Assembly: GCF_013003965.1 (NCBI RefSeq)
Contig: NZ_CP053069.1
Span: 961,419-1,025,418, forward strand
Reading direction: 5' to 3'
Origin: Usitatibacter rugosus
GTDB lineage: Bacteria > Pseudomonadota > Gammaproteobacteria > Burkholderiales > Usitatibacteraceae
Length of the DNA stretch: 64,000 nt
How positions within the stretch are numbered: the stretch's first letter is position 1; each line of letters begins with the position of its first letter. The notes under the pieces are model-generated. The model searched no databases. It was not told where the DNA came from and saw only the letters and a program-made list of their open reading frames with translations. This document shows, piece by piece, positions 33,471-37,540 of the stretch. The position numbers and the translations under genes were made by a program.

Positions 33471-34597
33471 AGGAGCAGGCCTTCGAGGGACCGGCGATAG
33501 ACCTCGGCGAGGGGCTCGATCTCTTCCAGCGCCACCGCCTCGTTCACCTTGTGGATCGAGCGGTTCACCGGGCCGAACTCCACCACCTGCGGGCAGATGT
33601 CGATGATGAAGCGTCCGTCGGACGTGCCGCCGGTGCAGTTGATCTCCGGCGTCACGCCCGAGACCTGCTTCACCACGCTCGTGAGCGTGTCCACGAGGCG
33701 CCCGCGCTTGGTGAGGAAGGGCTTGCCGCCCAAGATCCACTCGAGGCCGTAGTCGAGGCCGTGGCGGTCGAGGATCTGCTTCACGCGCGCCTGGAGGCCC
33801 TCCGGCGTGCTCTCCGTGGAGAAGCGGAAGTTGAAGTCGATGCGCACCTGGCCCGGGATGATGTTCTGCGCGCCGGTGCCGGCGTGGATGTTGGAGACCT
33901 GGAATGTGGTGGGCGGGAAGTGCGCGTTGCCCTTGTCCCATTCCGTGGCCACGAGCTCCGCGATCGCGGGCGCGGCGAGGTGGACGGGATTCTTCGCGCG
34001 GTGCGGATAGGCGACGTGGCCCTGGATCCCCTCCACCGCGAGCTTGCCGGTGAGCGTGCCGCGCCGGCCGTTCTTGATCGTGTCGCCGAAGACTTGCGAG
34101 GACGAAGGCTCGCCCACGATGCAGTAGTCGATCGTCTCGCCGCGGCGCTTCAGCTCCTCCACGACGCGCACGGTGCCATCGACGGCCGGGCCTTCCTCGT
34201 CGGAGGTGATGAGCAGCGCCACCGAGCCGGGATGCGCCGGATGGTCGCGGACGAAGCGCTCGGCGGCGGTCACGAAGGCGGCGATGGCGGTCTTCATGTC
34301 CGCGGCGCCGCGGCCGTAGAGCTTGCCCTCGCGGATCGTCGGCGCGAACGGATCGGAGTGCCACTTCTCGACCGGCCCGGACGGCACGACGTCTGTGTGT
34401 CCGGCGAGCACGACGAGCGGCCTCGCGGTTCCGTGGCGGATCCACAGGTTCGTGACGTCGCCATGCGCCATCACCTCGGGCTTGAAGCCGAGGGGGGCGA
34501 GGCGGTCGATCAGGAGTTGCTGGCAGCCTTCGTCGGCCGGTGTTACGGACTTACGCGCGATCAGCGCCTTGGCCAGCTCTAGCGTCTCGTTCTTCAA
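33467..34597 (-). CDS. dapE: Succinyl-diaminopimelate desuccinylase
   Basis: The 376-residue M20-family zinc enzyme makes LL-diaminopimelate and succinate in lysine/peptidoglycan synthesis. It carries [45 protein letters not shown] (catalytic Glu), [12 protein letters not shown] and the final metal His region. The N-terminal coding region overlaps the 3' end of the small DUF962 gene by 47 bp, so it depends on upstream translation. Confidence 0.96.
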
Positions 34598-34898
34598 AAG
34601 GGATTTTTCCGGTCAGCAGTTGCCAGTACATCACCCAGTCGCCCAAGAGGCTGTAGCCGGGGTACTTGAAGGTCGCGGGGCGGTTCTTCTCGAACGCGAA
34701 GTGGCCGACCCAGGCGAAGCCGTAGCCCGCGACCGGCACCAGCGCGAAGATCCACATCCTGCCGGTGAAGAGCGCCGCCACGATCAACGCCAGCACCAGC
34801 GTGCTGCCGGCGAAGTGGAGCTTGCGGCACGTGGGGTTGCGGTGCTCGGAGAGGTAGTAGGGGTAGAACTCCCGGAAGGTGGCGTAGGCCATGGTCAT
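34551..34898 (-). CDS. DUF962/Mpo1-like membrane protein, short paralogue
   Basis: The 115-residue protein has [25 protein letters not shown], two hydrophobic segments ([31 protein letters not shown]) and [20 protein letters not shown] (cited in parts). The spaced His residues (HRNP, KLHF, GHF) are those of the DUF962 family, of which yeast Mpo1 is an Fe(II) dioxygenase for 2-hydroxy fatty acids. It overlaps its longer paralogue by 4 bp and dapE by 47 bp. Confidence 0.86.
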
Positions 34899-35431
34899 GC
34901 GGTCGGCGAGGTGCCGTCGCTGCGGCGCGCGACGGTGGGGCCCACGCGGTCTTCGATGTAGCGGCGCAGCTCCGGCTTGGCGCCGAAGAGGAAGAAGGCT
35001 TCGGCGAGCACGAAGAGCGGTCCGATCAGGAGCTGCTTCACGTCATCGTAGAAGGCGGGCTTCATGCCCTCGAAGTAGTGGCCCCAGTACTGCAGGGCCC
35101 AGCCGACGACGAAGATGCCGAGCGCCCAGCCGAGCGATTGCGGGATGCTCTCGCGCGCCGTGATCTCGCTCGCCCCGGCGCACATCAGGAGCAGGATGAC
35201 GGCCATCGTGATGCCGAGCATCTTGTCCAGCGCGACGTAGTAGACGATCGCCGCCGCGGTCGTCAACACCGCGAGCGGAACGACGATGGAGCCGAACGGG
35301 AAGGTCACCGTGTTCAGCGCCAGCACCACCGAGAACACGATCAGCGGCACGCCGACGAAATGCGTGGCGATATTGCGACGGTCGCGGTGGTAGGCGGCGT
35401 ATTGGGTGAGGGTCTCGTGGATCGATTGCAT
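34895..35431 (-). CDS. DUF962/Mpo1-like membrane protein, long paralogue
   Basis: The 178-residue protein has the family pattern YAAYHRDRRNIATHFVGVPLIVFS with conserved HRD and THFVG (cited in part), four to five hydrophobic segments, then ALQYWGHYFEGMKPAF and LLIGPLFVLAEAFFLFG. Mpo1 of yeast catalyses alpha-oxidation of 2-hydroxy fatty acids in phytosphingosine breakdown; the bacterial substrate is not known. It starts 4 bp after the RDD-pilin gene stop. Confidence 0.88.
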   Translation of the reverse strand: MQSIHETLTQYAAYHRDRRNIATHFVGVPLIVFSVVLALNTVTFPFGSIVVPLAVLTTAAAIVYYVALDKMLGITMAVILLLMCAGASEITARESIPQSLGWALGIFVVGWALQYWGHYFEGMKPAFYDDVKQLLIGPLFVLAEAFFLFGAKPELRRYIEDRVGPTVARRSDGTSPTA

Positions 35432-35435
35432 GGCG

Positions 35436-36362
35436 TCAGCTCCGGCAGTTTGGCGGCAGGAACCTCGATTTGATGCCGCCGGGCGAGCAGGTCCAGGTGA
35501 CGGGGTTCGCCGCGTCCGCGGTGAACAGCACCTCGCCTTCGCCGACGGAGGGCGGCATGCCCCTGGGCATCACGCCGATGACGACCTTCGGGCCTTGCAC
35601 CGAGAGGCGTGTCGCGCCCACGTTAGGCGACATGGGTTGGACGAAGCCCGCCTCCTCGAGGGTGGCGGGGAGCTTGCCGTTCTTCGCGTGGAACTGCTGC
35701 ACCGCGGACTTCGCGGCGTTGCCGGTGGCGACCACTTCCACCATCTTCGAACGCGACAAGTAGTCCTGGTAGGCGGGAATCGAGATCGCCGCGACGATGC
35801 CGCCCCACATCGGAAGCGGGCCCAGCAGCACGATCATCACCCACACGCCCCAGGTGAGCTTCATGGTGCCGCTGCCGGCCGCGGCTTCCTCCGGCGACGC
35901 ATCCTTCCGGACGACCAGGGTGCTGGCCATCATGTCGTGCAGGGCCTGCTTGCGCTCGGTGAAGGCGGCCATGACGAAGCCGACCAGCAGCAGGACCGCG
36001 GAGACCCAGGCGGCGAAGTGGCGGCCCGTGGCGCGCAGGAAGCTGATGCGCTCGCCTTCGAGATCCGTCACCTTGATGCCGAAGGCCATCTTCCCGAGCG
36101 TCGCCTGGCGGCTGCTGCTGTGCATCAGCGAGTAGTAGAGCCAGGCGAGGGCGATGCCCACGAGCGTGGCCAGGAGGTCGAACCCCGGCTTCATCGTCAC
36201 CAGGCCGAACGTGATCGCGAACGAGATGACGTTCACCAGCACCGCGTCGAGCCAGTAGGCGGAGAAGCGCCGCCAGAAGCCGGCGTAGATCGCTTCGCCC
36301 GAGTCCTCGGCGGCGAGCCGGGCCTTCGGCGGATTCCAGGGCGATGCGGTGGTGGTGCTCAC
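35436..36362 (-). CDS. RDD membrane domain fused to a pilin-like C-terminal domain
   Basis: The 308-residue protein has an RDD domain at about 25-150 (YAGFWRRFSAYWLDAVLVNVIS, ATLGKMAFGIKVTD, cited in part) with its Arg-Asp-Asp-type charged residues and three hydrophobic helices. A fourth helix at about 170-200 (VWVMIVLLGPLPMWGGIVAAISIPAYQDYLSRSK, cited in part) reads like the N-terminal helix of a type IV pilin after its cleavage site. A soluble pilin-like domain follows (SAVQQFHAKNGKLPATLEEAGF). No prepilin GFTLxE site is present. The start is GTG at 36362, 17 bp after pilU. Confidence 0.83.
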   Translation of the reverse strand: MSTTTASPWNPPKARLAAEDSGEAIYAGFWRRFSAYWLDAVLVNVISFAITFGLVTMKPGFDLLATLVGIALAWLYYSLMHSSSRQATLGKMAFGIKVTDLEGERISFLRATGRHFAAWVSAVLLLVGFVMAAFTERKQALHDMMASTLVVRKDASPEEAAAGSGTMKLTWGVWVMIVLLGPLPMWGGIVAAISIPAYQDYLSRSKMVEVVATGNAAKSAVQQFHAKNGKLPATLEEAGFVQPMSPNVGATRLSVQGPKVVIGVMPRGMPPSVGEGEVLFTADAANPVTWTCSPGGIKSRFLPPNCRS

Positions 36363-36379: not shown

Positions 36380-37540
36380 TCAGCCGAACTTCTCTTCGGT
36401 CTCTTCGGTGATCTTGAAGCCGCCGAAGCCGCCGGCGGAGGTCATCGAAGGCTGCTTCGCCTTCTCGCTCGCCATCGGCATGATCCCGGAGTTGCCGAGC
36501 AGCAGCCCGAGGTTGGTGGCCGAATCGGCGTTCATGAGCGCTTCCTCGGTGGAGATCTTGCCGCTGCGCACCAGGCGGAAGAGATCCTGCTCGAAGGTCT
36601 GCGAGCCGGGCGACATGGACTTCTCCATCGCCTCCTTCACTTCGCCCACTTCGCCTTTCTCGATCTGCTCCTGCATGTTGCGGGTGTTGAGCAGCACTTC
36701 GACGGCCGGCGTGCGGCCGCCCTCGATCGTCTTCACCAGGCGCTGCGAGATGATCGCCTTCAGCGACACGGCGAGATCCTGCAGCAGCATGGGGCGTACT
36801 TCCAGCGGGAAGAAGCTGATCACGCGGTTCATGGCCTGGTAGGCGTTGTTCGCGTGCAGCGTGGACAGGCACAGGTGGCCGGAGAGCGCGTACGTGAGGG
36901 CCATGCGCATCGTTTCCTGGTCGCGGATCTCGCCGATCAGGATGATGTCCGGCGCCTGGCGCATCGCATTGCGCAGCGCCTCGTGGAAGGCGAGCGTGTC
37001 GTTGCCGACTTCACGCTGGTTGAAGATGGCCTTCTTGGGCGTGAAGACGTATTCGATCGGGTCCTCGATCGTGAGGATGTGGCCGGGCCCCTGGTTGTTG
37101 CGGAAGTCGAGCATCGAGGCGAGCGTGGTCGACTTGCCGGACCCGGTGGCGCCGACCACGAGGATCAGGCCGCGCTTTTCCATGATGAGCGAGGAGAGCA
37201 CCGGCGGCAGGTTCAGGCTCGCCATGCTCGGGATGTCGCCCGTCACGAAGCGGATCACGACGGAGACGGCGCCCTTCTGCCAGAACATGTTGACGCGGAA
37301 GTTGCCGATGCCGGGCATGGGCTTCGCGAAGTTGAGCTCCCGGTCCTTCTCGAAGGTCTCGATCTGGCGCGGGGTGAGCATCTCGTACGCGATCTTCTTG
37401 CACTGCTCCCCGTCCATGGGCGCGGGGTTGACCGGCATGATCGTGCCGTTGATCTTGATGCTGAGCGGGGAACCCGCGGAGATGAAGATGTCCGACGCCT
37501 TCTTCTCGGACATCAGCTGCAGGAGCTTCTCGATGAACAT
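36380..37540 (-). CDS. pilU: Type IV pilus retraction ATPase PilU
   Basis: The 386-residue secretion-superfamily ATPase has Walker A GATGSGKST (about 130-138), Asp box ILTIEDPIEYVF, Walker B DIILIGEIRDQETM and His box HLCLSTLHANNAYQAMNR. The C-terminus (FGGFKITEETEEKFG) is of PilU type; PilT has a shorter, different end. PilU supports PilT in pilus retraction under load. pilT, pilB and other pil genes are not in the window; instead it sits 27 bp after dapD in the dap block. Confidence 0.93.
   Translation of the reverse strand: MFIEKLLQLMSEKKASDIFISAGSPLSIKINGTIMPVNPAPMDGEQCKKIAYEMLTPRQIETFEKDRELNFAKPMPGIGNFRVNMFWQKGAVSVVIRFVTGDIPSMASLNLPPVLSSLIMEKRGLILVVGATGSGKSTTLASMLDFRNNQGPGHILTIEDPIEYVFTPKKAIFNQREVGNDTLAFHEALRNAMRQAPDIILIGEIRDQETMRMALTYALSGHLCLSTLHANNAYQAMNRVISFFPLEVRPMLLQDLAVSLKAIISQRLVKTIEGGRTPAVEVLLNTRNMQEQIEKGEVGEVKEAMEKSMSPGSQTFEQDLFRLVRSGKISTEEALMNADSATNLGLLLGNSGIMPMASEKAKQPSMTSAGGFGGFKITEETEEKFG

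Follow-up and report, generated by a model that had tools for sequence, protein, structure and literature searches.

XAC3805 of Xanthomonas citri, a DUF4339/GYF_2 protein, is pilin-like and has no prepilin leader (Dunger et al., 2014, as cited in PMC10333488 and PMC4960238). As these two papers relay the work, XAC3805 is probably not a bona fide pilin, and it is encoded away from pilSRBACD. RDD domains, the other type of module of concern here, have no general function. For example, the RDD protein SppI of Bacillus subtilis inhibits the membrane protease SppA with the involvement of its C-terminal domain, and an RDD protein of Halobacillus andaensis is reported as a Na+/H+ antiporter (PMC7568657).

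A literature search of open-licence papers found no paper on an architecture that joins an RDD domain to a pilin. It is not well understood how cells keep watch in the inner membrane over their pilus platform and their pool of pilins. Here, we focus on an RDD-pilin fusion encoded in a 64,000-nucleotide stretch of the Usitatibacter rugosus genome, referred to below as the window. The product is a real, intact membrane-tethered pilin, which may plausibly serve in the inner membrane as an analogue of pilins that does not itself assemble.

The fusion gene and its product

The gene starts with GTG at 36362 on the minus strand and stops at 35436, and the 308 codons between them contain no internal stop. 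Features of the gene and its surroundings are summarized in Table 1. A preliminary description had read the first half of the protein as an RDD domain and the second half as a pilin-like helix followed by a pilin head; the Pfam, PDB sequence and fold matches together bear this reading out. The RDD domain passes the curated Pfam cut-off with 93.6 bits against 24.1. The Pilin profile (PF00114) is matched over its entire length, positions 1-108 of 108, with 44.4 bits (cut-off 22), and the pilin-like assignment thus survives a profile search. Among PDB sequences the best match of the tail is the Neisseria type IV pilin (PilE) 1ay2 (E=1.4e-9). In an AF2 model of only moderate confidence, based on an alignment of ten fusions (mean pLDDT 69; 69-88 in blocks of the head), one helix of 45 residues leads into four strands, and the N. 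gonorrhoeae pilin 2hi2 heads the PDB fold matches given by Foldseek (E=2.9e-5, probability 1.00). The last hydrophobic helix is composite: its first part is unrelated to pilin, and it continues as the pilin alpha-1 segment GIVAAISIPAYQDY, without G-1, F1 or E5. NCBIfam gives no specific family for the fusion protein, only a weak pilin similarity far below the cut-off. The match found by PADLOC, to PD-T4-6, is confined to the RDD region (aa 66-154), and we therefore draw no link to defence.

Table 1. Features of the RDD-pilin fusion, its neighbours and related loci (positions refer to the window)
Feature	Position	Strand	Basis
RDD-pilin fusion gene	35436..36362	(-)	single open frame; Pfam RDD and Pilin; orthologue L007
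RDD membrane domain, aa 26-146	35925..36287	(-)	PF06271, E=1.6e-26
Last hydrophobic helix, aa 171-201	35760..35852	(-)	hydropathy; comparison with 24 true pilins; AF2 helix 184-228
Pilin head, aa 203-307, with C292 and C306	35442..35756	(-)	PF00114, E=3.7e-11; fold match 2hi2
pilU-like retraction ATPase	36380..37540	(-)	TIGR01420 (PilT/PilU family), E=8.4e-126
Mpo1-like membrane protein, downstream neighbour	34895..35431	(-)	PF06127, E=2e-20
Xanthomonadales loci in which pilin-tail and GYF_2-RDD genes are neighbours (L045, L047, L049, L063, L070, L077, L083, L101)			

A gene of this kind could be an artefact in which two genes are merged by a frameshift or a missed stop, and the occurrence of GYF_2-pilin and GYF_2-RDD as separate genes in Xanthomonadales would suit such an origin. 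However, the reading frame is single and open, and the sister species (G152) has the same fusion, 62% identical over aa 3-307 and 88% identical in the 17-aa linker. Because this species and many other genomes carry the fusion, the gene is not a frameshifted pair; an artefact is extremely improbable and, for practical purposes, ruled out.

Absence of the prepilin site

About 170 residues of the RDD protein stand before the pilin helix, and there is no N-terminal prepilin peptidase site (G-1/F1). When the window protein is aligned with classical pilins, W, V and L stand where those have G-1, F1 and E5, in agreement with the earlier remark that a prepilin peptidase site is absent. The same holds for the other tethered tails examined: all 27 retain the end of the pilin helix and lack G-1/F1/E5, including Glu5 of the mature helix. 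All 24 classical pilins used for comparison carry G-1/F1/E5, a set that was itself selected by this motif. The tethered tails retain the helix end, around P22 and Y24, and in most cases the C-terminal cysteines too. Across ten fusions I189, A191, P196, Y198, P232, W290, C292 and C306 are invariant.

By established pilin biology, a filament would not be expected to take up a pilin that lacks both the cleavage site and Glu5. Since the usual prepilin peptidase cut and Glu5 are both missing, the window protein should stay in the inner membrane and should not assemble.

In the RDD fusions L012, L055 and L056 the tail has no AIPAY helix end and keeps the cysteines of the pilin head.

Gene order and the neighbouring pilU-like gene

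The fusion gene lies 17 bp from a gene for a PilT/PilU-family ATPase, whose product is nearer to the PilU-position gene of the same genome (49% identity) than to PilT (40%); the fusion does adjoin a pilU-like gene, as had been noted. The order in the window is dapD, pilU-like, RDD-pilin, Mpo1, Mpo1, dapE. The two adjacent Mpo1-like genes (PF06127) together occupy 34551-35431 on the minus strand. A separate pilT-pilU pair is present in the window genome (G000:C1, about 125-127 kb), and the pilU-like gene beside the fusion is an extra paralogue whose place between dapD and an Mpo1-like gene is conserved across the family. Elsewhere in this genome, three nearly identical classical pilA genes stand in tandem (L001-L003, G000:C1:1494395-1496340).

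The preliminary description went further and proposed that the protein is an adaptor or brake for retraction that works with the adjacent PilU. The short gap and the recurrence of the same order in one sister species are in keeping with this idea. However, genus-mates (L122-L124) and other genera of the same family have dapD-pilU-Mpo1-dapE without the fusion, and within the family the fusion occurs at this locus only in the window genome and in the sister species. Outside the genus the fusion loci have varied neighbours, and no pilU homologue was seen in the flanks (up to 5 kb) of fusion loci from other genera. A conserved pilU operon is ruled out by these comparisons. Among the fusion loci checked, no neighbourhood link to pilus genes of any kind was found outside the two sister species. 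Because the locus exists without the fusion, the flanks checked in other genera are free of pilU and the ATPase is an extra paralogue, a role as PilU adaptor or brake is very unlikely. The pilU-like ATPase is probably not a functional partner of the fusion, whose position beside it seems to be recent and accidental.

Distribution of tethered pilins

RDD-pilin fusions are found across Beta- and Gammaproteobacteria. RDD domains fused to pilin tails occur in the same order as the window genome (L008-L012), and further records come from Betaproteobacteria, Kangiellaceae, Pleioneaceae, Rhodanobacteraceae, Lysobacteraceae, Chitinibacteraceae and Gallionella. In the window protein and six homologues, RDD and Pilin both exceed the curated Pfam cut-offs. 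An N-terminal zinc ribbon or GYF_2 domain is frequent among the fusions, and two RDD genes of this type stand in tandem in Dokdonella. Similar pilin tails are also found behind other membrane modules, namely TM2 (L022, L030) and DUF2628 (L025).

In eight Xanthomonadales loci (Table 1) the pilin tail follows GYF_2, or a short N-terminal part, and one hydrophobic segment; GYF_2 was recognised here by eye from the pattern W-Y-x-x-GPL, with no profile run for each protein. The pilin-tail gene (GYF_2-TM-pilin) adjoins or stands near a GYF_2-RDD gene. What the window protein combines in one chain is thus encoded in these genomes by two neighbouring genes, an arrangement that speaks for a functional association between RDD and the pilin tail. 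Taken as a whole, tethered pilins are a scattered and almost unstudied set.

The fusions of L011/L118 and L040 share a neighbourhood of ilvC-like, zinc-ribbon, AraC-like, fusion, polyprenyl synthase-like and rplU-like genes, as named by eye from the sequences. They also have an acidic, alanine-rich C-terminal extension.

Ancestry of the pilin tails

A tree of tethered tails and classical pilins, computed only from residues after the leader region, places the tethered tails in two groups among the pilins. Constraining all tethered tails to one clade gives a slightly better likelihood (AU p=0.598), and a single clade of RDD-borne tails is rejected (AU p=6.5e-5). TM2, DUF2628 and RDD tails are intermixed within one of the groups. 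Since one tethered clade is allowed and an RDD-borne clade is rejected, the tail has probably been exchanged among membrane modules. Inheritance of the RDD-pilin as a whole, as one gene lineage, was considered and is ruled out by the rejected clade. The simplest reading would be one tethered lineage whose tail was swapped between RDD, TM2, DUF2628 and GYF_2 anchors, although several origins are possible.

Divergence and topology of the head

Between the window species and the sister species the pilin head is 39% identical and the RDD part 72%. The RDD part has a dN of 0.149 and a dS of 0.35 (dN/dS 0.43), and neighbouring genes have dN/dS values of 0.10-0.15. For the head, dN is 0.71 and dS 0.62, which gives a dN/dS near 1.1; this ratio is unreliable at 39% identity, and therefore no positive selection is claimed. 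The head either evolves fast or is weakly constrained. Its dS is also the higher of the two, and the head has possibly diversified or been replaced.

The fusion could also have been fixed by chance, with a pilin part that is under little selection and is decaying. The ratio near 1.1, as against that of the RDD part and of the neighbours, and the disappearance of the AIPAY segment from three relatives (L012, L055, L056) would fit a decaying head. Nevertheless, W290, C292 and C306 do not vary in ten distant fusions and the head is recognised across families, while the ratio carries the uncertainty just given, and decay is an unlikely explanation.

With regard to topology, charge counts in the ten fusions favour a cytoplasmic position for the N-terminal region, for loop 2 and for the region after segment 3. 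We infer that the pilin head most likely faces the periplasm. With the region after segment 3 in the cytoplasm, the head can be periplasmic only if the third hydrophobic stretch of the RDD part is re-entrant or forms a hairpin. AF2 confidence is below 50 around this stretch, and the paper on SppI gives no RDD topology from which the side of the head could be decided.

Proposed role

Based on the features above, we propose that a type IVa pilin domain has acquired a permanent membrane anchor in place of the prepilin leader and the first half of alpha-1. In the window protein, this anchor would be the RDD domain plus one more hydrophobic helix. With the usual prepilin peptidase cut impossible and Glu5 absent, the protein would be kept in the inner membrane and out of the filament. 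The head, along with the retained helix end, may meet pilins, minor pilins or the pilus or endopilus platform. The RDD part, which in most relatives comes with a presumably cytoplasmic zinc ribbon or GYF_2 domain, might relay or scaffold this contact. The tethered pilin would work alone and would not be dedicated to the PilU encoded next to it. Thus, the part of the original proposal that most likely holds is a membrane protein showing a pilin domain that it cannot hand over normally, and the link to PilU finds no support.

The role that we tentatively put first, with rather less than even confidence, is to sense or regulate pilins or the pilus platform at the inner membrane. It is almost as likely that recruitment turned the pilin domain into a general periplasmic head for binding or sensing, carried by small inner-membrane proteins and with a function unrelated to pili. 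The diversity of anchors (RDD, TM2, DUF2628, GYF_2), the lack of conserved linkage to pilus genes and the fast divergence of the head all agree with recruitment, and the conserved residues of the tail are core residues of the pilin fold only. On the other hand, the helix end is kept besides the head, and a soluble domain that had been recruited would seemingly have no use for it. The near-constant presence of type IV pili in carriers also argues against recruitment, as PilM is over the cut-off in 20 of the 22 fusion carriers, compared with 225 of 300 genomes in the order (raw counts, uncorrected for relatedness among genomes). The two carriers without PilM are a 1.3 Mb MAG (G327) and a Dokdonella MAG (G331); another Dokdonella carrier, G332, has PilM. 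Because 75% of the genomes in the order have PilM, the association is weak, and it is compatible with a role linked to pili.

The sensor or regulator reading can be widened so that all tethered pilins form a single exchangeable, non-assembling lineage, placed on varied inner-membrane modules, that acts from inside the membrane to sense or regulate either the pool of pilins or the platform of the pilus/type II secretion systems; this generalization is more doubtful. Apparently uncut and unassembled pilins on zinc-ribbon or GYF_2 membrane modules offer candidate genes for a sensor or a decoy. An annotation as 'pilin' or 'pilA' that is made by domain alone, as with XAC3805, may not mean a pilus subunit.

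Comparison with known systems

Judged by its description alone, XAC3805 is likely of the same type as the GYF_2-TM-pilins of Xanthomonadales. In contrast to the window protein, it has no RDD domain in what is reported of it, and PMC10333488 and PMC4960238 do not place it in a family of tethered pilins. SppI and the H. andaensis antiporter share the RDD domain (PF06271) with the window protein. The C-terminal domain differs from that of SppI in being a pilin, and no sppA neighbour was seen beside the fusion.

Unlike the type IVa major pilins (PF00114; PilE/PilA), the fusion has no prepilin leader, F1 or E5, and its pilin part sits behind a multi-helix membrane domain. With these same pilins, it shares the pilin head, the C-terminal cysteine pair, the fold match and the helix end G-I-x-A-A-I-x-I-P-A-Y.
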